Source of the DNA: Trichocoleus sp. FACHB-46
GTDB taxonomy: Bacteria > Cyanobacteriota > Cyanobacteriia > FACHB-46
Length of the DNA stretch: 35,420 bases
NCBI RefSeq assembly: GCF_014695385.1
Contig: NZ_JACJOD010000037.1
Coordinates: 1-35,420 of the forward strand
Reading direction: 5' to 3'
A model generated the notes under the pieces. It was not told the origin of the DNA. It made no database searches and saw nothing but the letters and a program-made list of their open reading frames with translations. Below, piece by piece: positions 7,815 through 22,901 of this stretch. Position numbers and translations under genes: made by a program. How positions within the stretch are numbered: position 1 is the stretch's first letter; every line of letters starts with the position of its first letter.

Positions 7815-8979
7815 CAGGGCAAACGCATCTAAATTGGAGCAAGAGAGTGGGTGAGATACTGGATTAGAGCGTTTTAGCCAGAGACTCCTAACTGACCATG
7901 CCATCAACTGCTGCAAGCCTTCTAGAACATTTTGCCAGCTTAGCGGACCCTAGAGTTGAACGCAGCAAAGAGCATTTGCTCATAGACATTATCGGCATCA
8001 CGATCTGCGCAGTCCTTTGTGGTGCGGATAGTTGGGTGGACATCGAAAACTATGGCAATGCCAAGCTGGAATGGTTGAAGCAGTTTTTGGCCTTGCCCAA
8101 CGGGATTCCATTTTTCTCAATTGGATTGGAGCAGTCAGTGAACTTTGTAGCGGACAAATCATTGCGATAGACGGCAAGAGTTTACGTCACTCTTACGACA
8201 CTGGCGGCAATCGAGGGGCAATTCACATGGTCAGTGCTTGGGCTTGCCAGAACCGTTTGGTTTTAGGCCAACACACGGTTGATGAGAAATCCAATGAGAT
8301 TACGGCTATTCCCCAATTACTCAGAGTGTTGGCACTCGAAGGCTGTATTGTCACGAGTGATGCCATGGGCTGTCAAAAAACAATTGCCAAAGCCATTATT
8401 GACAAGCAAGCTGATTATGTCTTGGCTCTCAAAGCCAATCAAGGCAATTTGTATCGCGATGTGGTGCAACTGTTCGAGTATGCTCAGCACAATGGCTTCA
8501 AGGATATTGAGCATGCTTTCTATCAAACGGGCAGCGACGGACATGGTCGCATTGAAGTCAGACGACATTGGATGCTCGGACAAGTGAGTAATCTCACCAA
8601 TGCTCAGCCGTGGGCAGGGTTCAATAGTATTGGCGTGGTGCAATCAGAGCGACGTATCAAGGGGCTAACTCAAGTGGAAACCCGCTACTACATTTCCAGT
8701 CTCTCTCCTGATGCTCATCGCTTTGCTGAAGCCGTTCGCTCTCATTGGGGCATTGAGAATTGTTTGCATTGGGTACTTGATGTGGCTTTTGCTGAAGATG
8801 CCAGTCGAGTTCGCAAAGACCATGCACCGGAGAATCTGGCTGTTATCCGTCATATCGCGCTTAATCTGTTGAGCCAAGAGAAGACTGCCAAGGGGGGAAT
8901 GAAGGTCAAGCGCCTCAAAGCAGTCTGGGATAATGATTATCTGGCTAAAGTCTTTGCTCAATAAGATGCGTTTGCCCTG
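7815..8979 (+). mobile_element. ISAs1-family insertion sequence, 1165 bp, complete ends
   Basis: Both ends are intact: CAGGGCAAACGCATCT at 7815-7830 and its exact reverse complement at 8964-8979. They are flanked by the 10-bp duplication GGGTGATCGG, in the range expected for this family. The right inverted repeat begins on the last base of the transposase stop codon. The transposase inside is broken, so the element should only move if another copy supplies transposase. Perfect ends and duplication indicate a fairly recent insertion. Confidence 0.92.
7898..8964 (+). pseudogene. ISAs1-family transposase with internal deletion and frameshift
   Basis: The first frame (7898-about 8107) reads SLLEHFASLADPRVERSKEH and ends at LALPNGIP, the normal N terminus (DDE_Tnp_1-associated domain) of ISAs1/H-repeat transposases. 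The sequence resumes in another frame near 8110 with FLNWIGAVSELCSGQIIAID. Family members normally have about 20 further residues (SHDTF...) between these two blocks, so a deletion of roughly 60 bp that is not a multiple of three has broken the gene. The catalytic part remains readable: IAIDGKSLRHS, IVTSDAMGCQK, and SHWGIENCLHWVLDVAF with the DDE residues. It ends with TAA at 8962-8964. An ATG at 8032 opens the second frame but would lack the N-terminal domain. Confidence 0.88.
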
Positions 8980-9206: not shown

Positions 9207-9451
9207 TCCCCCTCCAGGTCCGAAGTACTGCTTTAATCAGGATTGCAGCATTTCTCAATTGCTGGCAGGAGGCGTGGCTGGGTAGAGAGCCTCCCCATCA
9301 TACAGTTTTTTCCGCCTCGTTGTAGATGGGTTTACCCTGCTCTTGAATTGTCTTGATTAATACATTTTGACTTGTGAGTTAATGCAATGAATAGATGCAG
9401 CTCTTCACTAGATTGATTAACTTTATTTATTAGCTGGACTCTTAAAATAAT

Positions 9452-10411
9452 ATGATCAGTCGCGCGATTCCTGTTACTGTCATTACCGGCTATTTGGGAT
9501 CTGGAAAGACCACACTACTTAATCGCATTTTAACATTTGAGCATGGCAAGAAAGTTGCTGTGATTGTTAATGAGTTTGGCGATGTCGGAATTGATGGTCA
9601 GCTTGTGATGAATGCTGATGAAGAAATTTTGGAAATGAATAATGGTTGTATCTGCTGCACAGTGAGAGGTGATTTAATTCGGATCATTAGTAATCTTTTG
9701 GAGAGGCAGGAAAAGTTTGATCATTTGGTCATTGAAACCACGGGTTTAGCAGATCCAGCACCTGTGATTCAATCTTTCTTTGTTGATGAAGCAATGCATT
9801 CAAAAACAGAGCTAGATGCCGTTGTGACGGTGGTCGATGTAAAACATATTTGGAATCACTGGGATAGCAGTGAGGCTCAGGAACAAATTGCCTTCGCCGA
9901 TGTCATTGTTCTCAATAAAATGGATCTCGTTTCTTCAGAGCAGGCAGACGTTTTAGAGAAACGAATTCGAGCTGCTAACGCGATCGCAAAAATCCATCGG
10001 ACTCAGAATTGTGAGCTAGAGATTGGTGCAATTTTAGGCGTGAAAGCTTTTGATCTGAAAAATGCCCTATCGATCGATCCCGAATTTCTAGGCGAAGACG
10101 CCCACGAACATGATGAAACGGTGACATCTATCTCGATTGTGGAAACAGGGTCTGTTAGTAGTGACAAGCTTACCACCTGGCTAAATCAGCTCGTACAGGC
10201 ACAGGGACAGAACATCTTTCGGATGAAGGGCATTTTGAATGTCGATGACGAGGATCGGCGGTTTGTGCTTCAGGGAGTTCATATGCTTTTAGACGGCAGA
10301 CCCGGAAAGCCTTGGAAGCCAAATGAAAATCGTCGAAATGAAATGGTTTTTATCGGTCGTGATCTCCCTGAAGCAGTTTTGAAAGAAGGGTTTCAGTCTT
10401 GCTTGGTTTAA
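9452..10411 (+). CDS. CobW/P47K-like metal-chaperone GTPase (COG0523)
   Basis: A 319-residue G3E GTPase. Its P-loop is GYLGSGKTT at residues 13-21, the metal-binding motif NNGCICC has Cys66, Cys68 and Cys69, and the base-recognition motif is NKMD at 155-158. A short His-rich loop (EDAHEHDE) follows near residue 205. The C-terminal CobW domain ([20 protein letters not shown]) is complete. COG0523 GTPases hand metal ions to client enzymes, and several nitrile hydratase loci carry such an activator (P47K in Fe-type Pseudomonas/Rhodococcus clusters). Here it heads a nitrile hydratase locus with a cobalt-type active site, so cobalt delivery is the natural inference. The ATG lacks a good ribosome site. 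Confidence 0.85.
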
Positions 10412-10467
10412 GTGATTGGCGAAGTCTCTAAATATGAAATTTCCATTCCTTAAAAGGAGCTTCTCTA

Positions 10468-10983
10468 ATGAGAAAGTTGGATGCTTATAGTATCAGCATT
10501 GGAGTTTTAGGTGCAGTTGATACTTATCTGACAGCTACATTGATTCTTGTTCCTGTATGGGTAACATTTATTGCTTGGGCATCTTTCTTTATCCTAGGTG
10601 GTAAGTCTTCAGGGCTGAAGCAAAGTATTGCCTCTAACCTGACGGGAATTACGATCGCCTCTCTCACTCTGTTAAGCATTGCCTTACTAAATGCCAATCC
10701 TTTGGTTGCTGCAATTTGTGTTGGGATGGGCAGTGCTGCGATGGTACAAGCCTCTAAAATTCCTCTACTCACTGCAGTGCCAGCAATTGTTTGGGGGTTT
10801 GCTTCTACGGTTGGTACTACTGCTGCAACAGGCAACCCCATTACCGCGCCAGGGTTAGACAATCCTGCCTTGGTTACTGCAGTAGCAATGATATTGGGCA
10901 ATGTGTTTGGCTATTTGTCAGAAATATGGGGTGATGCTATGACTCAGGAGCAAACTTCTGTGGGAAAACGCACCTACGTCTGA
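10468..10983 (+). CDS. DUF1097 family membrane protein
   Basis: A 171-residue, strongly hydrophobic protein with about five transmembrane segments. It starts at an ATG with AAAGGAG 8-9 nt upstream. The sequence (GVLGAVDTYLTATLILVPVW, WASFFILGG, LTAVPAIVWGFASTVGTT) matches the DUF1097 family, whose function is not established. It lies 56 bp after the CobW-like gene and 55 bp before the nitrile hydratase beta subunit. The tail EQTSVGKRTYV is short and polar. In this setting it could help with nitrile, amide or metal passage through the membrane, but that is inference from position only. Confidence 0.75.
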   Translation: MRKLDAYSISIGVLGAVDTYLTATLILVPVWVTFIAWASFFILGGKSSGLKQSIASNLTGITIASLTLLSIALLNANPLVAAICVGMGSAAMVQASKIPLLTAVPAIVWGFASTVGTTAATGNPITAPGLDNPALVTAVAMILGNVFGYLSEIWGDAMTQEQTSVGKRTYV

Positions 10984-11038
10984 AGCGATCGCGCCATTCA
11001 GAGTATCCATGATTGTTTTGGTTAAATGAGGTGAGTGA

Positions 11039-11758
11039 ATGAAACTACAGCACTATATCGGTGGTTTGGAAGGACTGGAGCCATCTAGTTTTGAAAAGCG
11101 TGTCTTCGTCCAGTCTTGGGAGGAGCGAATCTTTGGAATTCACGTTGCCATGATGGGCTTGAGTGATCATTTAGAAGCCGTTAAGACAGTGCCCACTCAG
11201 TTCAAGAGTTGCTGGACCTGGGGACACCTCCGCAAAGGTGCTGAAGGTTTAAATCCATTTGATTATTTCAAATATCGCTATTACGAGAAATGGTTGGGCG
11301 GTATTTCCGGTTTCTTTATGGAATCGGGATACGTATCCTCAGAGGAATTAGATGCCAAAACGACGGCATATTTGGAGAACCCAGCAGCTCCCTTACCCAA
11401 GGGTGGAGAACCCGCGATCGATGAGCAGGTAATGGAGTATTTGCGTGTAGGGGACTCCCCAAAAGTCGATGTAGCAGTTCAACCAAAATTTAAAGTAGGG
11501 GATGTGGTGACAGTCAAAAATCCCCCACCTGTCGCACATTGCAAGTTGCCAGGTTATCTCCGGATGAAGCAAGGTGTGATAGACGAGGTCTATGAAGGGG
11601 CGTACAACTACTACTTTTCAACAGGCGATGGAGTAGGCAATTCAATGCCCATCTATAACGTAAAGTTTGACTCCCACGATATTTGGGATAACCTGAGCGA
11701 ACCGAAGACGTGGATTTATGTGCAAATTTTTGAAGGGTATTTAGATGACCCTGCTTAA
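11039..11758 (+). CDS. nthB: Nitrile hydratase beta subunit
   Basis: A 239-residue protein preceded by GAGGTG about 7 nt from the ATG. The N-terminal region carries YIGGLEGLEPSSFEKRVFVQ and SWEERIFGIHVAMMGL, the standard beta-subunit opening. YFKYRYYEKWLGGI with ESGYVSSEEL follows, as in the family. The C-terminal SH3-like barrel has FKVGDVVTVKNPPPVAHCKL and PGYLRMKQGVIDEV, ending in IYVQIFEGYL. The subunit pairs with alpha to form the enzyme that adds water to nitriles to give amides. The beta-before-alpha order, 39 bp apart, is that of Rhodococcus J1-type cobalt enzymes. Confidence 0.93.
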   Translation: MKLQHYIGGLEGLEPSSFEKRVFVQSWEERIFGIHVAMMGLSDHLEAVKTVPTQFKSCWTWGHLRKGAEGLNPFDYFKYRYYEKWLGGISGFFMESGYVSSEELDAKTTAYLENPAAPLPKGGEPAIDEQVMEYLRVGDSPKVDVAVQPKFKVGDVVTVKNPPPVAHCKLPGYLRMKQGVIDEVYEGAYNYYFSTGDGVGNSMPIYNVKFDSHDIWDNLSEPKTWIYVQIFEGYLDDPA

Positions 11759-11797
11759 TCGTTTCGTAGGCATTGCTTGGATTGAGGAAACGACAGT

Positions 11798-12406
11798 ATG
11801 ACAGAAAATATCGATCGTGAAACCCACAGCGCAGCGCGTGTTCGAGCATTAGAATCCCTTTTGATTGAGAAGGGAATCATCACTGGCGAAACCGTTGATA
11901 AGGTGATTGAGTTTTTTGAAAAAGATATGGGACCGTTTAACGGTGCCAAGATTGTTGCTAAAGCCTGGGTTGATCCCACGTTTAAGCAACGTTTGTTGGA
12001 AGACACTCCTGCGGCGATCGCTGAAATGAATTTCCCCCGTGGTATGACGGGTGCGGAAGGAGAACACATGAAGGCAGTCGAAAACACCCAAGAGGTTCAT
12101 AACTTGATTGTTTGCACAATGTGCTCTTGCTATCCGTGGCCCGTCTTAGGGTTGCCTCCGTACTGGTTTAAGGACCCCACCTTTCGAGCTAGGGCGATTC
12201 GGGAACCGCGCAAAGTCTTGCAAGAGTTTGGGCTAGAGATTCCCGAATCTATTCAGGTTGCCGTTTGGGATACGAGTGCTCAAATTCGTTGGTTTGTCAT
12301 TCCTGAACGTCCTATGGGAACGGAAGGCTGGACAGAGGAGCAATTGGCCGCGATTGTGACACCAGAAGCGATGCAGGGTGCGGCAAAGGTTGTTGTCCCT
12401 ACTTAA
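11798..12406 (+). CDS. nthA: Nitrile hydratase alpha subunit, cobalt type
   Basis: A 202-residue protein with GAGGAAA 9 nt before the ATG. The metal-binding claw is VCTMCSCYPWPVLGLPPYWF with Cys106, Cys109, Ser110 and Cys111. A Thr after the first Cys and a Tyr after the last mark the cobalt (VCTLCSCY) type, while iron enzymes have CSLCSCT. Met108 replaces the more usual Leu. Downstream features such as RAIREPRKVLQEFGLEIPES, VAVWDTSAQIRWFVIPERP and GTEGWTEEQL are all family landmarks. In known enzymes two of these Cys are oxidised to sulfinate and sulfenate after metal binding. Activity would require the neighbouring activator protein. Confidence 0.95.
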   Translation: MTENIDRETHSAARVRALESLLIEKGIITGETVDKVIEFFEKDMGPFNGAKIVAKAWVDPTFKQRLLEDTPAAIAEMNFPRGMTGAEGEHMKAVENTQEVHNLIVCTMCSCYPWPVLGLPPYWFKDPTFRARAIREPRKVLQEFGLEIPESIQVAVWDTSAQIRWFVIPERPMGTEGWTEEQLAAIVTPEAMQGAAKVVVPT

Positions 12407-12434
12407 ACTTAGCAGCAGATGAGGAGACATAAAA

Positions 12435-12488
12435 ATGGCCCCAGTGTTCATGCCATTCATTAAATTCATCATTCTCATAAGTGAGTAG
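12435..12488 (+). CDS. Possible 17-codon ORF between alpha subunit and activator
   Basis: ATG at 12435 encodes MAPVFMPFIKFIILISE and stops at TAG 12486-12488, with GAGGAG 9-10 nt upstream. It is hydrophobic. It lies in the 90-bp gap between nthA and the activator gene, whose own ribosome site TAGGAG overlaps the stop. It could be a coupling leader, a one-helix protein or chance. Confidence 0.35.
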   Translation: MAPVFMPFIKFIILISE

Positions 12489-12496
12489 GAGCAACT

Positions 12497-12850
12497 ATGC
12501 AAGTGAAATTTGAGCAGTTTGCAGCCACCAGTATGTTGGGTAGTGCAGATGCTCCACCCCGTAATAATGGTGAGTTGTTATTTCAACGTCCCTGGGAAGG
12601 ACGCGCCTTTGGGATGGCAATCGCGCTATCCAAAAAGGGGCATTATGAGTGGGAGGACTTTCGGCAGGGATTGATTGCCTCGATCGCGGAGTGGGAAGCA
12701 ACCCACTGTAAGGATGACCCTGAATGGGATTACTATCAGCGCTGGTTACTGGCTTTGGAGCGCTTAGCCGTGGAATCGAACCTCCTTGATCCAGCTGAGG
12801 TGGATCAGCGTACCGCCGAACTATTGGCTCAGGAAACCCAGTCGGTTTGA
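12497..12850 (+). CDS. Nitrile hydratase activator, beta-subunit-like (NhlE/P14K type)
   Basis: A 117-residue protein with TAGGAG 7 nt before its ATG. It resembles the N-terminal half of the nitrile hydratase beta subunit: GELLFQRPWEGRAFGMAIAL, EWEDFRQGLIASIAEWE, WDYYQRWLLALERLAVE and LLDPAEVDQRTAEL. Such proteins bind the alpha subunit, help load cobalt and oxidise the Cys ligands, then exchange alpha into the alpha-beta enzyme (self-subunit swapping, known from Rhodococcus J1 NhlE and Pseudomonas P14K). Position directly after nthA supports this. Annotators often call it nitrile hydratase accessory protein. Confidence 0.85.
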   Translation: MQVKFEQFAATSMLGSADAPPRNNGELLFQRPWEGRAFGMAIALSKKGHYEWEDFRQGLIASIAEWEATHCKDDPEWDYYQRWLLALERLAVESNLLDPAEVDQRTAELLAQETQSV

Positions 12851-12902
12851 TCTGTTGAATACTCTCTGTGTCGCCACTATTGCTCACTCTAAAATTTGCA
12901 CT

Positions 12903-13595
12903 ATGCCTCAACAGTTACTTCGATCTATCTCCTTGAGAACGTTCAACCTAACCCGAGTCCTACAACTGACCACAGTTTTGCTGATGCTGTTTATCAGCAC
13001 CTCTGCCTTGGCACATCACCCAATGGGTGGCAAAACACCCTCTAACTTCGTCGAAGGCTTTTTGTCTGGGGTGGCGCATCCCGTGATTGGGTTCGATCAT
13101 TTTGCCTTTATTGTGGCTGTTGGCTTACTAGCCGCCACCAAACGGCAGGGCATTTTAATTGCGATCGCGTTTGTGTTATCTGCAATGGTCGGCACTGGGC
13201 TGCATCTGATGGGGGTTAGTTTGCTCGGAGCAGAATTATTGATTTCAGGCTCAGTTTTGCTATTCGGCATTTTGCTGGTGTTGAAAGACAGCCCTAACAC
13301 ATTGCTGATTATGGCTTTGGCAGCGCTAGCTGGCATGTGTCACGGGTATGCTTATGGCGAAGCGATTTTCGGCGCTTCTATGGTTCCCCTCCTTGCTTAT
13401 TTGCTAGGGTTCACCGTTATCCAAATGGGAATTACGACCAGTGTAATGATGCTGAGTCAATCTTTATCACAACGTAAGGATGCCTCCCAAATGTCGTTTA
13501 AGATCCGGTTCGCTGGATTCGTGCTATGTGGTATTGGTGCAGCTTTTTTCTCGTCTCAACTGATCGATACTATTTTGCCTACACTAAATAATTAG
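12903..13595 (+). CDS. hupE: HupE/UreJ family metal permease (probable cobalt or nickel)
   Basis: A 230-residue protein. The ATG at 12903 is preferred because an earlier in-frame ATG (12786) would overlap the activator gene by 65 bp. A signal peptide (LQLTTVLLMLFISTSALA) would be cleaved before HHPMGGKTP, placing a His pair at the mature N terminus. The HupE hallmark GFLSGVAHPVIGFDHFAFIV follows, and a second conserved block GMCHGYAYGEAIFGASMVPL lies near residue 140. Five to six membrane helices are predicted. HupE/UreJ proteins carry nickel or cobalt. Placement at the end of a cobalt-type nitrile hydratase locus argues for cobalt. No cobalamin riboswitch could be recognised in the 52-bp gap upstream. 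Confidence 0.85.
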   Translation: MPQQLLRSISLRTFNLTRVLQLTTVLLMLFISTSALAHHPMGGKTPSNFVEGFLSGVAHPVIGFDHFAFIVAVGLLAATKRQGILIAIAFVLSAMVGTGLHLMGVSLLGAELLISGSVLLFGILLVLKDSPNTLLIMALAALAGMCHGYAYGEAIFGASMVPLLAYLLGFTVIQMGITTSVMMLSQSLSQRKDASQMSFKIRFAGFVLCGIGAAFFSSQLIDTILPTLNN

Positions 13596-13658: not shown

Positions 13659-14993
13659 TGTCAAGAATTTTGTGTAAGCCAGATTCGGAATCAGTGGGAT
13701 AGACGATCGGAAAACTCGATAGCAAAGCGTGAGAGCGCTTGCTTCCAGTTGGGGATCGGCATCGTCCATCGCTTGGCAATATTGCTCAGGGCCAGGTAGA
13801 GCAATTTGAAGACAGACTCATCACTGGGGAAGTGCCCCTTGGTCTTGAGCACCTTACGCAAAGAACGATTGAGTGACTCAATGGCATTGGTGGTGTAGAT
13901 CACTCGTCGGATGTCTGCCGGATAGTCAAACAACGGAATGATGTGCTCCCAGTGCCGCAACCACAGTTGACTGATGGAAGGATAATGCTCGTCCCACTTC
14001 TGGGCAAAGGTTTCGAGGGCTGCCTCCGCTTCCGCAACCGTGGCTGCCTGGTAGATGGGTTTGAGTTCGGCTACGGCTTCGCGCTGCAACTTCCAGGGCA
14101 CATACTTGAGCGATTTACGCATCAAGTGAACGATGCACAACTGGACCCGAGCACTAGGATAAACGGTCTTGATGGCTTCTGGAAATCCCACCAGACCATC
14201 GACCCAAGCGATAAAGACATCTTCCACCCCTCGGTTTTTCAATTCCGTCAGCACCGAGAGCCAGAACTTAGCGCCTTCTGCCGGAGACATCCACATCCCC
14301 AGCAGTTCCTTGTGCCCTTCGAGGTTGACCCCCAAGACCAGGTAGACCGCCTGGGACCTAACTCGCCCTTCGGAGCGGACTTTGACACAGAGCGCATCTA
14401 ACCAGACAATCGGATAGACCTTGTCCAAGGGTCGGCCTTGCCATTGGCGCACCTCTTCAGCCACGGCATCGGTGACCTGGCTAATCAAGGTGGCAGAAAT
14501 TTCCACCCCATAGAGCTCTTCCAACTGCGCTTGGATATCCCTGGTGCTCAATCCCCTTGCATAGAGAGCGAGGATTTTGTCATCCAACCCACTGATGCGT
14601 CGTTGTCCTTTTTTGACCAGAACGGGTTCGAACTGGCTGAAGCGATCCCGAGGTACCTGAAGTTCGAGTTCTTCGAGTTCGGCTTGCACCGTTTTCTTGG
14701 AGAAGCCGTTGCGAGAATTACGGCGTTCCCTAGGTAGCTCTGCTCCGGGAGTCAAGGGGTGGTTGTGTTGTTGAAGATGATGGCTTAACTCTGCCTGTAG
14801 CGCCTTTTCCACCAAACGCTTGGTGAGTTGCTTCAGCAACCCTTGTTCTCCAAGAACGGCTTCGGGTCCGGAGTAATCTTGCAGCAGTTCATCGAACAAC
14901 TGGTCGACTTTGGCGGCAGAAGGATTCGATTCTTTCATGGGCGGTCTCCTGTCATTGGATGTTATTTTGACCGCTTACACAAAAAACTGTACA
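13659..14993 (-). mobile_element. IS256-family insertion sequence
   Basis: The transposase gene is framed by imperfect inverted repeats. TGTCAAGAATTTTGTGTAAGC is at 13659-13679, and the reverse complement of 14973-14993 reads TGTACAGTTTTTTGTGTAAG plus C. I see no matching 8-bp duplication outside them. A second TTACACAAAAA-like string at 13624-13634 faces the left end and could be the trace of an earlier copy. The element abuts the truncated transposase on its right. Confidence 0.75.
13691..14938 (-). CDS. IS256-family (Mutator-like) transposase
   Basis: A 415-residue protein of normal family length. Landmarks include the zinc-free N-terminal helical region (LTKRLVEKALQAELSHHL), RNSRNGFSKKTVQ, and YPIVWLDALCVKVR with the first catalytic Asp. 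Next come AWVDGLVGFPEAI with the second Asp, the conserved VQLCIVHLMRKSLKYVPWK, and TTNAIESLNRSLRK with the catalytic Glu. The reading frame is intact and both ends of the element are present, so the element may be active. It lies only about 100 bp downstream of the convergent hupE gene. Confidence 0.95.
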   Translation of the reverse strand: MKESNPSAAKVDQLFDELLQDYSGPEAVLGEQGLLKQLTKRLVEKALQAELSHHLQQHNHPLTPGAELPRERRNSRNGFSKKTVQAELEELELQVPRDRFSQFEPVLVKKGQRRISGLDDKILALYARGLSTRDIQAQLEELYGVEISATLISQVTDAVAEEVRQWQGRPLDKVYPIVWLDALCVKVRSEGRVRSQAVYLVLGVNLEGHKELLGMWMSPAEGAKFWLSVLTELKNRGVEDVFIAWVDGLVGFPEAIKTVYPSARVQLCIVHLMRKSLKYVPWKLQREAVAELKPIYQAATVAEAEAALETFAQKWDEHYPSISQLWLRHWEHIIPLFDYPADIRRVIYTTNAIESLNRSLRKVLKTKGHFPSDESVFKLLYLALSNIAKRWTMPIPNWKQALSRFAIEFSDRLSH

Positions 14994-15780
14994 GTCTCCG
15001 AAAGTGCATTCCCTGCCAGCATCTCAAGCGTAATCGTCCCTGCTTAGGGTCATCCACCTCACTCTGCTGGTCGGGGCAATGCCAGGTAGGCGGGTCACTG
15101 AGCTTGAACTTATCGCCATGCACTCTCGGTCTGCCTCTGCCGCTATAAGTGGGCGGAGTTGTCCAAAAACAGCTATTGGAGCGCAAGCGCATCAGCTTAT
15201 CACAGGTGATGTCTGCGGTTGCCAAGACAAAGCGTGCACAACCATACTCACTATCCCACAAGGAGATCGCGCGAATGGACAGGACTTGGCACACCTGTTG
15301 CAGTTGCCATGCCGCTTTGCTAATCGAACTCTCGAAACTGGTGATGCGCTCATGTCGTAAGGGCAATGCCCAACTGGTGCCAGATTCGGGAATCCACGCA
15401 AGGGTACTCCAGCCTTGCCCCACTCCTACGGGTCGGTTGCCGAGCATCGCAACTTGATGTTCGTAAGTACGCTCCTGCAAGGTAGTTGCATAGGGACGTG
15501 CCCAGATGGTGTGATCACCTGCTAGCACAGGACGCTCACCTTGACGCATCTGCTCAATGTACAGTCGCATCAGCTTGCGCCGTTGGGGACGGCTATCTTG
15601 CAGAGCTTCATACAAGCTTGACCACTGCTGTCGAAACAAAGGGCTACAACTGAGTTCAGCAAAGCTTGTGACGCTGGGACTACTCAAGACTGCATCCCCC
15701 AGTTCAAACATCGCGTCATGGGATCGTCCTAAACACTGGTAGGCAGTTTGACGAAATGCCTTCAATTTGTCAGCATTCAT
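14994..15780 (-). pseudogene. DDE transposase (DDE_5/IS701-like), C-terminus lost at IS256
   Basis: From the ATG at 15778-15780 the frame reads MNADKLKAFRQTAYQCLGRS and continues through PVLAGDHTIWARPYATTLQE (first catalytic Asp), RPVGVGQGWSTLAWIPE, WDSEYGCARFVLATADI and RGRPRVHGDKFKLSDP. These are typical of cyanobacterial DDE_5-type transposases of about 400 residues. After LRLRCWQGMHF the frame enters the right end of the IS256 element and stops there (SFLCKRSK is IS256 sequence). The remaining C-terminal third is not found on the other side of IS256, so a deletion accompanied or followed the insertion. Confidence 0.75.
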
Positions 15781-16648: not shown

Positions 16649-17296
16649 TTACGCCATTGCTTTGACAACGTCGTCTGTAGACAAAACAGCGTTAGCAAGA
16701 TAGCCAAAGTTGATCAACGCGGCCTTATAGCCATCACCTAGCTCTGGATGCTGCGGAGCAGCCGTCGCATCCTTAACGACAAGGATTTCAAATCCTTGCT
16801 CTAGCAACTCGCGCAGATGAGCTTCAACGCAAAGATTGGCGAGCATGCCGAGTAAAATAACCTTGCTCATGTTGCGCTTACGTAGTTGCAAAACCAAGTC
16901 GTTGTTCTGTGGCCCATAGACTTTATGAGGATTGACGACGATGGGTTTGCCGTCTTCAATAAAGGGCTTATAGCGTTCGGGCCAATCGGCACCAGAACCC
17001 ACAAATCCGTCGAGGCTGAGGGAACCAGTGCGAGCAAATTCCTTAACCTCAAGCATCATCTGCTCCAGATTGCCGGCAAATTTCCAGCCGTGGTCGGTGG
17101 GGTAGTAGTAGTGGGGAGAGATGAAAACTTCAAAGTCGTTCCGCTTTGCGGCTTTAAAGATGTGCTCAATGTTCTCAACGGTCTTGTTTGCTTTGACGCT
17201 ATCCCCGACTAAATCCCAAGAAACTCCTGTTTCACTCAAAACATCGTTTTGTGGATCAATCACAACGATTGCGGTGTCGGTCTTGTTGATATTCAT
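16649..17296 (-). CDS. Isochorismatase-like cysteine hydrolase
   Basis: A 215-residue protein from the ATG at 17294-17296, chosen because AAGGAC lies 8 nt upstream. An in-frame ATG at 17317 lacks this. Catalytic residues of the family are all present: Asp14 in VVIDPQNDVL, Lys125 in NPHKVYGPQ and nucleophile Cys156 in GMLANLCVEAHLRELL. Family members split C-N bonds of amides such as nicotinamide or N-carbamoyl compounds, or act on isochorismate. The HYYYPTDHGW insert near residue 65 is seen in hydrolases of this type clustered with SDR and alpha/beta hydrolase genes. Substrate is unknown. A link to the amides made by nitrile hydratase is conceivable but unproven. Confidence 0.85.
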   Translation of the reverse strand: MNINKTDTAIVVIDPQNDVLSETGVSWDLVGDSVKANKTVENIEHIFKAAKRNDFEVFISPHYYYPTDHGWKFAGNLEQMMLEVKEFARTGSLSLDGFVGSGADWPERYKPFIEDGKPIVVNPHKVYGPQNNDLVLQLRKRNMSKVILLGMLANLCVEAHLRELLEQGFEILVVKDATAAPQHPELGDGYKAALINFGYLANAVLSTDDVVKAMA

Positions 17297-17326
17297 GATT
17301 GTCCTTGCGATCGCCACTAAATGCCT

Positions 17327-18082
17327 TTAAATCTGTGCCATCCCGCCATCAACAAATAACTCAATGCCGTTGACAAAGCTGCTATCGTCCGAAGCAAGAA
17401 AAACCACAGCTTTGGCAATCTCATCCGGTGTGCCAACTCGCCCGATGGGGATGCTGACGGCCTGGCTGTCCACAAATTCCTTTATCTGCTGCTCATTCAG
17501 CCCAAGCAGCTCGTAGCCTGGCGTCAGCACCACGCCGGGGCTAAGGGCATTCACCCGAATCTTGCGATCCTTGAGGTCGAGTGTCCAATTGCGGGCAAAC
17601 GATCGCACCGCCGCTTTGGTCGCGCTGTACACGCTGAAGGCTGGCGTGCCTTTGACCGAAGCCGTTGAGGCATTCAGAATGATTGAAGTTCCCTCTGGCA
17701 TTAGAGGCAGAGCTTTCTGCACAGTAAATAACAGACCTTTGACGTTGGTGTTGAACGTTTTGTCAAAGTGTTCTTCAGTAATTGAGCCGAGCGGGACGAT
17801 CTCTCCTCCCCCTGCATTGGCGAAGACCACATCCAATCGACCTTGCTTTTGCTTGATTGTAGTGAACAAGCGATCGAGGTCTGCCATATTAGAGACGTCG
17901 CTCTGCACCCCCACAACATTTTCACCAAGCGCATCTACAGCAGCATCTAGTTCACGCTGGCGGCGGCCTGTGATAAAGACATAGGCTCCTTCGGCAATAA
18001 AGGCCTTAGCAGTAGCGAGCCCGATGCCGCTGGTGCCGCCGGTGATAAGCGCAACTTTTCCTTCTAACTTTTTCATGATCAT
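17327..18082 (-). CDS. Short-chain dehydrogenase/reductase (SDR)
   Basis: A 251-residue classical SDR. The NAD(P) site is [15 protein letters not shown] and the strand motif is [10 protein letters not shown]. The catalytic set is Asn in FNTNVKG, Ser in [12 protein letters not shown], and Tyr and Lys in [11 protein letters not shown]. The C-terminal [16 protein letters not shown] is typical. GRR after the second strand ([10 protein letters not shown]) suggests preference for NADP(H). Two starts are possible, 18082 (MIMKK) or 18076 (MKKLEGK); AAGG lies 4 or 10 nt upstream respectively. It ends 30 bp before the isochorismatase-like gene on the same strand, so they are probably cotranscribed. The substrate cannot be told. 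Confidence 0.92.
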
Positions 18083-18144
18083 TAGCCTTGCAAAGAATAA
18101 TTGGTTTTGAGCGTGCTATTCGTACCAAAGATCAGGAACAGAGA

Positions 18145-18365
18145 TCACGCTGCCGCTGTTTCAATCAGTTTGGCAAGCTCATTGGGATGAGAAACAGGGA
18201 AACGTGACTAGAGTTGACTTCAATTGTTTTAGCCCCCATCTATCGAGCCATAAATCGCTGGAGGTCAGGATTAATAGCCCGCTCGGCTTGAGTTACGAGG
18301 TACCAAGAAAGAATGGTTTTTCAGGCGGTTTCATTCATAGATTGGTCAAAAGCTGTGCTAGCAAT
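18145..18365 (-). pseudogene. C-terminal remnant of an alpha/beta hydrolase
   Basis: Minus-strand translation gives IASTAFDQSMNETA, a stop, KTILSWYLVTQAERAINPDL plus QRFMAR, a stop, then MGAKTIEVNSSHVSLF. After a one-base frameshift it continues SHPNELAKLIETAAA and stops at 18145-18147. This is the C-terminal quarter of the same hydrolase type as the intact gene at 18611-19432, including its catalytic His in SSHV. Two stops plus a frameshift show it is dead. Confidence 0.75.
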
Positions 18366-18488
18366 TGGCTTTTAGATGACTGCCATGATCTGCACCTCAG
18401 CATCCGGTATATCCTGAGCAGACAGATCGTGAAATCTATTGCGATCGGCATAGAGAAAATTTGCTACATCAGACACAATTGCTGTGCT

Positions 18489-18520
18489 GGTTGAATCTGC
18501 TGCGTATCTACGATTCAACC
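18489..18520. repeat. 9-bp inverted repeat
   Basis: GGTTGAATC (18489-18497) and GATTCAACC (18512-18520) form a 9-bp stem with a 14-nt loop, in the gap downstream of the alpha/beta hydrolase gene. There is no T-run, so a terminator role is uncertain. Confidence 0.6.
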
Positions 18521-18545
18521 GCTCACCGTTTCACCAACATCCGGT

Positions 18546-18591
18546 GCGAAACACCGCCAATTTTTAATGCGAAACACCGCCAGTTTTTAAT
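18546..18591. repeat. Two tandem copies of a 23-bp unit
   Basis: The unit begins GCGAAACACCGCCA and ends TTTTTAAT. Copies at 18546-18568 and 18569-18591 differ at one base. It lies right after the stop of the hydrolase gene. The remainder of the 18366-18610 gap has no recognisable gene. Confidence 0.85.
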
Positions 18592-18610
18592 GTTCATCAG
18601 TTTTTCCTTG

Positions 18611-19432
18611 CTATGGCGCAGTTGCAGCATGCTCGATGATCTCAGCGACCGCATCCGAATGAGAAATCATCACGACATGAGATGAGCCACTTACAACAAC
18701 GGTTTCCTTTGAGTTGGCTCGCTCCGCCATGAAAGCATGCACCGCTGCTGGAATGTTCAAGTCCCGTTCGCCATAAATAAACCAGGACGGGATAGATTTC
18801 CATGCAGGCGCACCGGAGGCTTCAGTAAACGCGGCTTCCACAATCGGACGCTGGGTACTAGCCATCAGTTCCGCGTCACTAGCGGGCAGATCCGCAGCAA
18901 ATTGAGCATGGAACTTGCTCTGCTGAATGTATAGGTCTTTGCCACCATCGGGCAGGACAACCGGCGGTGCGAGGGTCGGCGTGAGCGTGCTGCCCGGATA
19001 ACGTCCTGAGAGTTCGGCGGCAGTCTCGCCTTCGTCAGGAGCAAAGCCAGCAACGTAGACCAGTGCTTTCACATTGTTGTTACCATTAACCGCATTGGTC
19101 GTTACCGAACCTCCGTAGGAATGTGCAACCAGCACGATGGGACCATTGATGTCTTTAAGGACGCTAGCAACATAGTCTGCATCACTCTTAACGCCACGTA
19201 GGGGATTAGCCACAGCAACCGTTGGGTAACCTTTCGGAATCAGTTTGGCCAATACACCATTCCAACTGGAAGACTCGGCGAACGCGCCATGAACAAACAC
19301 GATCGTGGGTTTATTGGCTTGTGCACTAGCAGTATTCATGATGGCTCCCAGAGAGGTGATTGTAATAGTTCCTAAAAAGAGGATGATAATCAGAACCAGG
19401 CGAATGCCGTTTCTGAAGGTAGGCATATTCAT
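18611..19432 (-). CDS. Secreted alpha/beta hydrolase
   Basis: A 273-residue protein with GAGGAAA 8-9 nt before its ATG. An N-terminal signal peptide (LVLIIILFLGTITITSLGAI, then cleavage after about ASAQA near residue 38) points to export. The fold motifs are TIVFVHGAFAESSSW, nucleophile elbow VAHSYGG with Ser105, acid in YGERDLNIP and base in SGSSHVVMISH. It belongs to the non-heme haloperoxidase/esterase-like group that often appears next to SDR and isochorismatase-like genes. A dead relative of its C-terminus lies just downstream at 18145-18365, suggesting past tandem duplication. Substrate is unknown. Confidence 0.88.
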   Translation of the reverse strand: MNMPTFRNGIRLVLIIILFLGTITITSLGAIMNTASAQANKPTIVFVHGAFAESSSWNGVLAKLIPKGYPTVAVANPLRGVKSDADYVASVLKDINGPIVLVAHSYGGSVTTNAVNGNNNVKALVYVAGFAPDEGETAAELSGRYPGSTLTPTLAPPVVLPDGGKDLYIQQSKFHAQFAADLPASDAELMASTQRPIVEAAFTEASGAPAWKSIPSWFIYGERDLNIPAAVHAFMAERANSKETVVVSGSSHVVMISHSDAVAEIIEHAATAP

Positions 19433-19579
19433 GTTGTAATTTCCTCTGAGTTATTTCGTTGGATAGATTGCAACCGTGACGTGAGAAATTGACGGATGTG
19501 GGTTGCGATAATGTTCGCGGAGCATGTGCTTTACATTCAGCGCTGCGAAGTGTCGATCGCATCGTTTCACCGACCTGAT

Positions 19580-19969
19580 TCATCGCTTAAGATCGGGCAC
19601 TGTGAACGTCACTGTTTCGCTGGTAATCACTTTGTGCGTAGGATCTGCTAGTTCGATCAGCACCTTGTGTAAACCAGGTTCCAGACCAACTAGAATGATT
19701 GTTTCACCACTGGCATCGACAAAGTGCCACGGCGCGTCATCAACGGTGATGTGGATATGTCCGATACGAGGCGATACATCGAGCGCACCTTTGCCGAACA
19801 CGAGCAACACGCGCAAATTCTCCGTTCGATACTGAATGAAGACACGTCCCTGGGACAGCGGTTCGGGAAGTGGCGGATCGACAATTAGCTTGGGTGGTGC
19901 TTCGTTTTCGATCGCGATCAGCGGAGATGAGCCGATGATGTCCTTGGCGCTTGGGGTGTAATTGATCAT
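19580..19969 (-). CDS. DUF6130 family protein
   Basis: A 129-residue protein with SAKDIIGSSPLIAIENEAPP, KLIVDPPLPEPLSQGRVFIQ, YRTENLRVLLVFG, VSPRIGHIHITVDDAPWHFV and GLEPGLHKVLIELADPTHKV. These are the conserved blocks I associate with DUF6130. The His-Ile-His pair followed by a Trp-His could bind a metal, but no function is established. It has no signal peptide. It is about 100 bp downstream of the next alpha/beta hydrolase gene and 147 bp upstream of the secreted hydrolase, all on the same strand. The start lacks a good ribosome site. Confidence 0.8.
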   Translation of the reverse strand: MINYTPSAKDIIGSSPLIAIENEAPPKLIVDPPLPEPLSQGRVFIQYRTENLRVLLVFGKGALDVSPRIGHIHITVDDAPWHFVDASGETIILVGLEPGLHKVLIELADPTHKVITSETVTFTVPDLKR

Positions 19970-20040
19970 TATTGATAGGTATTTGAGAGAGGAAGAGGAA
20001 CGCGGAATGGGAAACGCGGTGACGCGAAATTGAATGAAAC

Positions 20041-20070
20041 TTCTCCGTGTCCCCGTGTCTCCGTATCCTC
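20041..20070. repeat. Short CTCCGTGTC-type dispersed repeat
   Basis: TTCTCCGTGTCCCCGTGTCT and the following CCGTATCCTC lie in the 100-bp gap between the DUF6130 gene and the hydrolase. GGAACGCGG/GGTGACGCG elements lie just to the left (about 19997-20027). A related string sits inside the giant kinase gene at 32947-32983. Confidence 0.55.
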
Positions 20071-21066
20071 TTATTGCAGGTGTTTCTTCAATTCAGCAGC
20101 AGCCTGAACAAACAGAGAACGAACTGCCGGAACCTCGGCTAAACCAGTCAGCAGCCCAAAATCATGAATCATGCCGTTGTAACGCACGGTTGTCACTGTC
20201 ACTCCAGCCTCATCGAGCTTGCGTCCATAAGCCTCGCCACCATCACGCAAAATATCACTCTCTGCCACCTGAATTAACGCTGGAGGCAAGCCTTTCAGTT
20301 GCTCAACCGTCGCCTGTAGGGGAGAGGCATAGATATCCTTGCGCTTTTCTGGGTCAGGGATGTACATGTCATACATCCACTTCATCCCTGGTGTAGTTAA
20401 GAAACGTTTGTCACCAAATTGATGATAAGAATCCGTTTCAAAACTAGCGTCTACAATCGGCCACATCATAATTTGCAACTTGATGTGTGGTCCTCCTTTT
20501 TCTTTCGACTGCAAAGCAGTTACTGCTGTCATATTTCCGCCAACACTGTTGCCGACAACTGCCAGGTTTTTACCATCAACTCCAATTTCTTCCCCGTGCT
20601 CAGCGACCCATTTAGTGGCAGCATAGATCTCATTAATTGCTTGTGGATACTGAGCATCTGGCGTGCGCGTGTAGTTGACAAAGACACCCGCAAACCCAGA
20701 AAGCACAACGAGATTGCGAACCATGTGCTTGTGCGTTGGGTAATCGCCCAATACCCAACCGCCGCCATGAATAAAGATGAAAGCAGGCAATATGCCTTCG
20801 ACCCCTTCAGGTCGCACGATATTGAGTGTGATCGTGTAACCATCAGCAGTAATCGTCTTCTCAGACTCTTCAATGCCGGAAAGATCGACTGGAACAGAAG
20901 CCTGTGCATCCACGAGTACTTGACGTGCTTCGGATGGAGGTAATGTCTCTAGAGGCACACCTCCTGAATTTAGCTCCTTCAAAAATGCCTTTACCTCCCT
21001 GGAAAGACGTGGATCATCTGCAACTTCCAAAATCTTTGCTGTTGGTGAGTTTACTTGAGCAACCAT
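20071..21066 (-). CDS. HSL-family alpha/beta hydrolase (esterase)
   Basis: A 331-residue protein from the ATG at 21064-21066, which has AAGGAG 7 nt upstream. A longer in-frame start at 21117 would add 17 residues without such a site. It carries the hormone-sensitive lipase oxyanion motif FIHGGGWVLGD, nucleophile motif VVGNSVGG, acid in QVAESDILRDGG and base in NGMIHDFGLL. The HSL N-terminal cap is present (DDPRLSREVKAFLKELNSG). No signal peptide is seen, so it is cytoplasmic. HSL esterases cleave short-chain or acetylated esters. Neighbouring oxygenase- and reductase-like genes fit a small-molecule breakdown set, but the substrate is unknown. Confidence 0.9.
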   Translation of the reverse strand: MVAQVNSPTAKILEVADDPRLSREVKAFLKELNSGGVPLETLPPSEARQVLVDAQASVPVDLSGIEESEKTITADGYTITLNIVRPEGVEGILPAFIFIHGGGWVLGDYPTHKHMVRNLVVLSGFAGVFVNYTRTPDAQYPQAINEIYAATKWVAEHGEEIGVDGKNLAVVGNSVGGNMTAVTALQSKEKGGPHIKLQIMMWPIVDASFETDSYHQFGDKRFLTTPGMKWMYDMYIPDPEKRKDIYASPLQATVEQLKGLPPALIQVAESDILRDGGEAYGRKLDEAGVTVTTVRYNGMIHDFGLLTGLAEVPAVRSLFVQAAAELKKHLQ

Positions 21067-21191
21067 GATATTCTCCTTCGATAAGTAGTAAACAATTTGT
21101 TGAAATAACACTGTCAAGTGAGTTGATTTAACAGTGATGTTTGATCAGCAGTGATTGTGGAATGGCAATCACTTTCTACTGACATCTTTTC

Positions 21192-22694
21192 TCAGTCAGA
21201 ACGATTTGTTACTGGTGAAAAAGCTGTTGACCTAGCGGATTGCTGCCCCGATGGTTGTTTCCACACCGCAGCCGCATAGAGCGAGTTCTCGAAATCGGGG
21301 GCAATATCGCCTGTGATCCTTGCCTCATGATGCGCCCAGTCCTTAAAGAACAAGTCGTGACTGATGCGCGATACGATTGCAGGTACGTCACGGCGGATGC
21401 TGTGAATGTCACCCACTGGCAAACCGAAGCTAACTAAACCAGCCGGATTAAAGACGTGAATGTCTTTCAGGTAAGGGGCAGTGCCAAGTACTTTCTCTTG
21501 GTATTCGTGGGCGTTACCAAGGTAAGGGTGCATCCCCAGATTGTCGTCGCGCAAGTCTTCTGGTGGCTCGTAGCGATCGCGCCAGAGGGCAATATGCTGA
21601 GCGAAGTCGGCTAGTTCGGGACGCTGTGTTGGGTCAACGAAGTAACCCGTGCCAGCGATCGCAAAATCAAACTCGAAAACATCATCGTTCACCTGGATGG
21701 CAATGCGTTCGCCCTTGGCGGCGGCTTCCGCATCACCCATTTTCCGTGCCGATTTCCAAGGTGCAGATAGGTGGATGTGAAAGTTTGGGAATGCGATCGC
21801 TCGCTCAATCGACTTTGGTGGTGGTGCGGTGCCTGCTTGATGAAAGCGCCAAGCCTGTAACCAGCGGGCTGAATCGGGTAGTTGGGGATAGTTGTCGTAA
21901 GCGCCAGGGTAATCTCGTACCCGGAGTAATGACAGAGATGCGATCGCCGATCGCCGTACAAATAGGTGTACTGCCTTAGCGCCTGATTCCAGCGCCACTC
22001 CTGCTGCATCGAAAGCTGAAGCCGCCGCACCTAGCACTGCCACAGTTTTGCCGCGCAGTGCTTCAAAATCAATGGCATCGACGGTATGGGCGTACAGCGT
22101 GCGGGGTAAGTCAGCCAATACTGGAGGTATGTATGGACCACCAGTGCCAGCCACGCCATTGGCGAAGATAATTTTGCGCGTAGTCTCCACCTGCGGGACA
22201 CCGTTTACCTCAAAGTGTAGACGGAAGAAACCTGTGGCTGGCTCTATCCGCACCAACTTCGTTTGGTAACGAACCTGGATACCGAGAAAATGCCGATACC
22301 AACTGAGGTACTCAGCCCAATCCACCCGCTCAATGCGATCGATCTCCGCATAGGCTGCCGCACCGTGTCGAGCTTCGTACCAGGCTTGGAAGGACAATTC
22401 TGGGATTCCTAGTTCTGGACCAGGCAGATTCTTTGGCGTGCGGAGCGTTCTCATCCGTGCTCGCGTCAACCACACCCCTGCATGAGCTTCGTCATCTGCT
22501 GCATCGATCTCCGTCACGCGCCCGATTCCAGCACGCCGTAGTGCAAATACAAAGGTGCTACCGCTGCCGCTGCCACCGATTATCGTGACATTGTGATCAA
22601 TACCAGGGCGATCGGGTACCCAGTTCTCGGGATCGGGACCAAGCAGGCGCAGCGCTTCGCAGGCAGCAAAATTGGAATCGATCGTTGTTGTCAT
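21192..22694 (-). CDS. FAD-dependent oxidoreductase, flavin monooxygenase-like
   Basis: A 500-residue protein from the ATG at 22692-22694, preferred because GAGGAG lies 7 nt upstream. The open frame extends to 22742 (16 further residues). There are two dinucleotide-binding sites: NVTIIGGSGSGSTFVFALRR near residue 36 (FAD) and KTVAVLGAAASAFDAAGVAL near 215 (NADPH). An intervening TPKNLPGPELGIPELSFQAW block and a conserved FAIAGTGYFVDPTQRPEL follow. This layout resembles flavin-containing and Baeyer-Villiger-type monooxygenases and their NAD(P)-binding relatives. The glycine-rich FAD site is unusual (GGSGSGST rather than GxGxxG). It is the first gene of the minus-strand enzyme run, 126 bp before the esterase. 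Confidence 0.85.
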   Translation of the reverse strand: MTTTIDSNFAACEALRLLGPDPENWVPDRPGIDHNVTIIGGSGSGSTFVFALRRAGIGRVTEIDAADDEAHAGVWLTRARMRTLRTPKNLPGPELGIPELSFQAWYEARHGAAAYAEIDRIERVDWAEYLSWYRHFLGIQVRYQTKLVRIEPATGFFRLHFEVNGVPQVETTRKIIFANGVAGTGGPYIPPVLADLPRTLYAHTVDAIDFEALRGKTVAVLGAAASAFDAAGVALESGAKAVHLFVRRSAIASLSLLRVRDYPGAYDNYPQLPDSARWLQAWRFHQAGTAPPPKSIERAIAFPNFHIHLSAPWKSARKMGDAEAAAKGERIAIQVNDDVFEFDFAIAGTGYFVDPTQRPELADFAQHIALWRDRYEPPEDLRDDNLGMHPYLGNAHEYQEKVLGTAPYLKDIHVFNPAGLVSFGLPVGDIHSIRRDVPAIVSRISHDLFFKDWAHHEARITGDIAPDFENSLYAAAVWKQPSGQQSARSTAFSPVTNRSD

Positions 22695-22901
22695 GTCGAT
22701 CTCCTCAGCTCTTGTTGAGATGGATGAAAAATGGAATAGCAAACAACCAAGCTGTTGTCAGGTTCTTGTTCGCAGATTCAGATTCGAATTTGTTTGTATG
22801 TTCTTAATGTAAAAGGCAACCTCAAATCTGTCGCCAATTCAGGGTTTATGTTTTGAACCACAAGATGATCGCTATTTGAGCAACCTCAGGTGCTGGCATA
22901 A

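Follow-up and report, generated by a model that had tools for sequence, protein, structure and literature searches.

Gene content and boundaries of the cassette

The 35,420-nucleotide stretch of Trichocoleus sp. FACHB-46 analysed here (contig NZ_JACJOD010000037.1; hereafter the window) carries at 9452-13595 six close-set, head-to-tail genes on the plus strand, encoding the two subunits of a putative cobalt-type nitrile hydratase (NHase), a beta-like activator, a COG0523 GTPase, a DUF1097 membrane protein and a HupE/UreJ permease (Table 1). All of the open reading frames (ORFs) are present, and each matches above curated cut-offs the family to which a preliminary description of this DNA had assigned it. 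The intergenic gaps, taken from the ORF coordinates with the HupE start at 12903, are 39-90 bases, so the six genes are likely to form a single operon. The ATG at 12903 was preferred to the TTG at 12786 as the HupE start because the ATG is shared by the related locus of Phormidium tenue FACHB-886.

Table 1. Features of the cassette and its flanks (window coordinates)
Feature	Coordinates	Strand	Basis
Upstream stretch common to nearest relative, presumed promoter and leader	9291-9451	+	blastn homology
COG0523 (G3E) GTPase, 319 aa, CobW_C domain	9452-10411	+	Profile matches, nearest solved chain, own clade
DUF1097 membrane protein, 171 aa, six predicted helices	10468-10983	+	DUF1097, 118 bits; structure model
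NHase beta, 239 aa	11039-11758	+	TIGR03888
NHase alpha, 202 aa, claw VCTMCSCY	11798-12406	+	TIGR01323; claw read
Beta-like activator (accessory protein), 117 aa	12497-12850	+	TIGR03889
HupE/UreJ permease, 230 aa	12903-13595	+	HupE_UreJ; start via Phormidium tenue comparison
Left flank: DDE_Tnp_1 transposase, split across two overlapping frames	7898-8964	+	PF13808, PF01609
Right flank: Mutator-family transposase	13691-14938	-	PF00872, 391 bits
Right flank: DDE_5 transposase	14962-15780	-	PF13546, 70 bits

The six-gene block is a discrete cassette between transposase genes. Comparison by blastn with the 16.6-kb Phormidium tenue FACHB-886 locus (L037) revealed homology at 9291-13594 (93%), beginning ~160 bases ahead of the GTPase start codon and ending at the HupE stop, and none elsewhere in the window at E 1e-10. 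Homology with a Pantanalinema locus (L038), which starts just 178 bases further left, covers 9342-13579 (84%). These two loci are also the closest by alpha subunit (Pantanalinema 95%, Phormidium tenue 94%). Nitrosomonas halophila has an alpha with 85% identity to the window alpha, which speaks for transfer between phyla. A promoter scan returned no plus-strand site in 9291-9451, and neither promoter nor terminator sites were more frequent than in shuffled sequences. An Rfam scan of the window gave no match at the gathering score, and hence no riboswitch.

The nitrile hydratase and its activator

The alpha and beta subunits exceed the cut-offs of their NHase models (TIGR01323, 302 bits against 250; TIGR03888, 203 bits against 152), as does the activator that of the accessory-protein model TIGR03889 (80 bits against 46), and the genes follow the order beta-alpha-activator. 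The alpha claw, VCTMCSCY, fits the pattern CT-x-CSCY, with Met replacing the Leu of the textbook CTLCSCY, a replacement found in 14 of 53 GTPase-linked alphas; where an Fe-type alpha would have CSLCSCT, the window alpha reads CTMCSCY. Among solved structures, alpha matched Co-type NHases best, with lower scores for Fe-type chains. Claw, models and activator together point to a cobalt-type NHase, as the preliminary description had proposed, with cobalt as the metal predicted from sequence. Thiocyanate hydrolase was considered and rejected, as the gamma-subunit model TIGR03887 reached 182.8 bits against a cut-off of 291.45 and beta is one whole ORF. The order beta-alpha-activator and two proposed roles of the activator have been described (PMC7193024), and cyanobacterial NHases as such are already known (PMC3323583; PMC10098168).

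The residue after the claw was examined as a marker of GTPase dependence and discarded. All 53 GTPase-linked alphas have Tyr there, and the 27 alphas of that scan that are unlinked and uncut have Phe or Trp. Tyr also occurs in 75 of 79 GTPase-less control alphas (the controls are defined below), so that this residue marks lineages only. The stretch before the claw comprises at least 21 residues in the 77 alphas of the tree group that includes the GTPase loci (see below) and 17 residues in 48 of the 79 GTPase-less controls; 18 other controls have 20-28 residues there, with unrelated letters. One alpha (L076), encoded beside a GTPase and HupE, has the claw VCSLCSCY, which combines the Fe-type Ser with the Co-type Tyr.

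The COG0523 GTPase

The GTPase ORF carries Walker A, NKxD and CxCC motifs and the C-terminal domain, and matches PF02492 (cobW, 209 bits, cut-off 20.7) and PF07683 (CobW_C, 87 bits), as expected of a COG0523 protein. The earlier label "CobW-like" is thus right as to family and wrong as to CobW itself, since the CobW model TIGR02475 gave 218.2 bits against a cut-off of 332.1. CobW is marked by a stretch of at least 4 histidines (PMC2770081), and at that kind of site the GTPase has HEH alone. The nearest solved chain is YjiA (1nij, 190 bits), and the score with the YjiA model PRK11537 (239 bits) lies under the cut-off of 361. Identity with Nha3 was likewise rejected: the GTPase of the one Fe-type locus sampled (L285, the same gene as in L241) sits in another clade and scores best with ZigA. 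Among the residues kept in 51 rows of NHase-linked GTPases and rare in 24 others are Ser108, His136, His277, Met278 and Gly285. The source genome has three further COG0523 genes with CxCC, and at two related loci a second COG0523 gene lies close to the NHase cluster (L054:533-1582 and L091:10573-11922).

Distribution of the GTPase among nitrile hydratase loci

An alignment of three window-type alphas retrieved 259 relatives, of which the best 80 were kept as related loci; conservation among them therefore holds within the window type of NHase. A GTPase was counted if on the same strand and within 4.5 kb of alpha. By this measure it is present at 51 of the 80 loci, 43 of them cyanobacterial by their record titles and 8 from Pseudomonadota or Bacillota (Nitrosomonas, Paenibacillus, two Azospirillum, Bradyrhizobium, Granulosicoccus, a Cellvibrionaceae metagenome-assembled genome (MAG) and a further gammaproteobacterial MAG). 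Of the loci lacking it, L059 and L087 are cyanobacterial and truncated upstream by a contig end, and the remaining 27 belong to the Mycobacterium group (20) or to alphaproteobacteria (7). The exact six-gene order of the window occurs at 17 of the 80 loci, all cyanobacterial, and also in another family of the phylum (genome G170, locus L032; 54-71% protein identity); the arrangement thus recurs in other cyanobacterial genomes, where the preliminary description had suggested looking for it.

Within the phylum of the window, 386 genomes were searched with PF02979, giving matches in 16, over the cut-off in 15. A full-length alpha was found in five (G000, G005, G014, G170, G312) and one in two pieces in G133; the other matches are short and partial. 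In G030, G042, G167 and other cyanobacteria, such partial NHase-alpha matches occur in runs, and we take these to be possible nitrile hydratase leader peptide (NHLP)-type precursors of ribosomally synthesized and post-translationally modified peptides, which are known from this phylum. In G005, a 10-kb contig carries the GTPase together with beta, alpha and activator, but neither DUF1097 nor HupE. Near three other cyanobacterial alphas fetched with their flanks (L034, L035, L036), tblastn found no GTPase.

The control set consisted of 80 NHase-family loci sampled from the listed full-length matches: 40 alphaproteobacterial (every third, ranks 1-118 of ~137), 20 of ~77 Mycobacteriales and 20 of 23 gammaproteobacterial, with 15 of the 80 shorter than 8 kb. 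They were screened by profile search of six-frame translations around the alphas. A single COG0523 GTPase was found (172 bits, L241), beside an alpha with the claw CSLCSCT, which is the Fe-type arrangement; its recovery indicates that the control search detects the known arrangement. None of the 79 controls without this claw has such a GTPase, which bears out the earlier remark that the gene mix is unusual. Two organisms hold both kinds of locus: in Azospirillum canadense and in a gammaproteobacterium, the copy of this clade (L061 and L055, respectively) has the GTPase, and the other NHase-family copy fetched (L201 and L250) lacks it.

Phylogeny of alpha and the GTPase

On a quick alpha tree (165 rows), GTPase presence corresponds to three changes, against 45 with shuffled labels. 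These comprise the Fe-type case and one 77-tip group that holds every other GTPase locus, together with 22 loci lacking the GTPase (20 of the Mycobacterium group, Methylocystis and control L235). Within the group, the distribution can be read as one gain and one loss, with modest inner supports (85, 88 and 0 for pure groups).

A careful tree of the GTPases (84 rows) placed the NHase-linked ones under one branch with support 95/93. Eight further rows lie on this branch, namely seven second readings of the same genes and one Nitrosomonas contig-edge piece. Outside it are the Fe-type GTPase, E. coli YjiA and the sampled paralogs, which are those returned for eleven genomes (samples of up to 30 loci and six loci). 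Judged by these sequences, the NHase-linked GTPases are a clade of their own, apart from the sampled Fe-type activator.

Cobalt and nickel transporters beside the GTPase

HupE matches HupE_UreJ (PF04955) with 132 bits (cut-off 23). Its motif HPVIGFDH fits HPxxGxDH, and a signal-like stretch at its N terminus is followed by AHHP, the His pair that had been reported earlier. The expectation that GTPase and permease are both conserved beside the NHase is satisfied by the GTPase and largely by the permease, as HupE adjoins 31 of the 51 GTPase loci. Elsewhere, other transporters are found (CbiM at 4 of 51, NicO at 1 of 51). CbiM, CbiQ and an ATP-binding cassette (ABC) ATPase occupy the slot after the activator in Paenibacillus abyssi, and CbiM does so at the two Azospirillum loci; in Elainella saxicola, CbiM, CbiN, CbiQ and an ABC ATPase lie upstream with a second COG0523 gene, and in Bradyrhizobium vignae NicO lies ~3 kb downstream.

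Taken together, HupE, CbiM or NicO is found at 36 of the 51 GTPase loci, compared to 3 of the other 29 (one being L087, cut where the GTPase would stand) and 5 of the 80 controls (36/51 versus 5/80, Fisher p ~5e-15, with related loci treated as independent). CbiM was searched with four query sequences and NicO with one, so that misses are possible in controls and cluster loci alike. The exchange of HupE for unrelated cobalt/nickel transporters is the best argument that HupE carries cobalt here, and we consider it a probable cobalt importer. A hupE mutant of Synechocystis is rescued by cobalt or methionine (PMC7689651; PMC4284471). The source genome has no HupE_UreJ match other than the cassette HupE, and its one above-threshold cobalamin riboswitch is on another contig. 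This riboswitch (L124:1938-3131; G000:C14, ~220.8-222.5 kb) lies ahead of a histidine-rich, membrane-like protein that matches no Pfam family.

DUF1097 and nitrile use

The DUF1097 match (118 bits) compares with a cut-off of 24.6. The gene is found at 28 of the 51 GTPase loci, 22 of the 27 uncut GTPase-less loci and 2 of the 80 controls, and thus tracks this kind of NHase rather than the GTPase. An alignment of 35 sequences showed no His, Cys, Met, Asp or Glu in invariant or near-invariant columns. Given this lack of conserved metal ligands and its presence without the GTPase, DUF1097 was taken out of the cobalt line; from its sequence it does not look like a metal protein. A structure model (mean predicted local distance difference test score 92.4) gave no match in the Protein Data Bank at E <=0.001 with Foldseek. 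The best VIA-align row was the anion channel AtALMT1 (7voj; Z 9.8, root-mean-square deviation 4.7, 162 aligned), a Z that is not conclusive for helical bundles, and the first row from another family had Z 6.9. We treat this modelled resemblance as a lead only.

The cassette contains no amidase gene, so the earlier term "self-contained" is too strong, and the use of nitriles as a nitrogen source is possible, yet unproven; detoxification fits equally well. Four amidase-family matches lie on other contigs of the source genome, and in Gloeocapsopsis (L031, on the contig that also holds L049) the opposite strand carries two amidase pieces flanking the cassette.

Neighbouring genes

An ORF with an FGE-sulfatase domain (PF03781) and a signal-like start lies directly upstream of the GTPase at L064:5034-5996, with similar ORFs in L054, L057, L058 and L079; the family is present in 14 of the loci clustered. 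Formylglycine-generating enzyme (FGE)-type enzymes act on cysteine, and a link with oxidation of the claw cysteines is conceivable, but disfavoured by the signal-like start. At L032:9082-14557, a second NHase-family cluster lies beside the six-gene cassette. Its alpha-like gene scores over the cut-off of TIGR01323 and under that of TIGR03887, its beta-like and activator-like ORFs are split, and it also includes an isochorismatase-family gene, an NMT1-type binding protein followed by ORFs reading as an ABC permease and ATPase, and an AsnC-type regulator. In the window itself, the minus strand at 16649-22742 encodes an isochorismatase-family hydrolase, a short-chain dehydrogenase, two alpha/beta hydrolases and a flavin-type oxidoreductase, which are not seen as part of the cassette.

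Discussion

Cobalt-type NHases are not known to need a COG0523-type metal-handling GTPase. The Co-type operons of Rhodococcus rhodochrous J1 and Pseudomonas putida (PMC7193024) share with the cassette the subunits, claw type, activator family and the order beta-alpha-activator, to which the cassette adds the COG0523 GTPase, DUF1097 and HupE; known Co-type clusters are reported with NiCoT (NhlF) transporters (PMC7689651). Fe-type NHases with Nha3 (P44K/P47K) likewise have a COG0523 GTPase with CxCC beside the NHase genes. Nha3 is reported to cluster exclusively with Fe-type NHase, and Co- and Fe-type centres to be assembled by different mechanisms (PMC2770081). The cassette would work like this Fe-type pair, yet it is not a member, as it differs in GTPase clade (with one Fe-type example sampled), claw and activator, the latter two being Co-type. 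Compared to CobW and YjiA, the window GTPase shares the G-domain, CxCC and CobW_C, but falls under both model cut-offs and adjoins an NHase. The HupE proteins of Synechocystis PCC 6803 and of further cyanobacteria belong to the same HupE/UreJ family and have HPxxGxDH (motif from PMC7689651), whereas the window HupE lies in an NHase cassette and no B12 riboswitch was found in the window. No published account of this cassette was found in the literature searched, which mostly excluded subscription papers, so an earlier notice is possible; as far as that literature goes, the association of a COG0523 branch with a cassette for a cobalt-type NHase is new.

We hypothesize that the locus is a horizontally moving cobalt-type NHase cassette that brings its own metal supply, and assign this reading a probability of roughly two in three. 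A dedicated cobalt supply is well supported by the genomics. The sequences show gene content, order, conservation and phylogeny; the biochemical steps, all of which we infer, would run as follows. HupE would import Co2+, and the COG0523 GTPase would bind it at the CxCC site and, hydrolysing GTP, pass it to alpha or an alpha-activator complex, by analogy with Nha3 and CobW; by the same analogy, the GTPase may instead exclude rival metals. The beta-like activator would then load alpha and swap it into the alpha-beta enzyme, as established for relatives, and this enzyme would hydrate nitriles to amides. DUF1097 might be a passage for a small substrate or product, more likely than a metal protein.

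Several observations weigh against this reading. The mycobacterial loci of this alpha clade retain beta, alpha and, in most cases, the activator but show no nearby GTPase, which indicates that not every such NHase depends on one. A quick GTPase tree without the eight additional rows keeps the linked GTPases on one side with a Shimodaira-Hasegawa-like approximate likelihood ratio test (SH-aLRT) support of just 56. No HupE, CbiM or NicO was found near 15 of the 51 GTPase loci. The GTPase gene of Nitrosomonas halophila, finally, lies in two contig-end pieces (L048:1-330 and L269), each continuing into unrelated sequence, and may be broken or interrupted.

The GTPase could alternatively be a general metal homeostasis factor, zinc-linked or other, riding on the cassette, with the enzyme loaded by the activator alone, as known Co-type NHases are. 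A link to zinc is frequent among COG0523 proteins (PMC2770081; PMC7895991), YjiA is the nearest solved relative of the GTPase, and the mycobacterial relatives lack it. However, the GTPase-NHase link spans three phyla with the linked GTPases on one branch, and cobalt/nickel transporters accompany the majority of them (36/51), which makes this alternative unlikely. It appears quite improbable that HupE and the GTPase serve cobalamin synthesis, their adjacency to NHase reflecting shared transfer and not a shared task: the only above-threshold cobalamin riboswitch of the genome lies outside the window, and CbiM or NicO replaces HupE beside the same NHase clade, even though hupE genes of cyanobacteria are reported to lie under B12 riboswitches (PMC7689651; PMC4284471) and the cassette HupE, as the sole match of its genome, may serve B12 too. 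An Nha3-type iron inserter with an iron-loaded or mixed enzyme is highly implausible in view of the claw, the Co-type activator and the distant clade of the one Fe-type GTPase, although no COG0523 group other than Nha3 has been reported beside NHases (PMC2770081).

A narrower version of the cobalt-supply reading, to which we give an even chance, is that the GTPases represent the cobalt counterpart of Nha3, a separate COG0523 subfamily for cobalt NHases that would act in relay with the subunit-swapping activator, giving a two-chaperone maturation route (importer, GTPase, activator, enzyme) that moved between phyla as one unit and disappeared from the mycobacterial branch. If a COG0523 branch belongs to a cobalt enzyme, one such group would gain a defined client and a likely metal, and the cassette would become a test case for how cells keep cobalt separate from iron and zinc. 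The production of active NHase for industry could also benefit.

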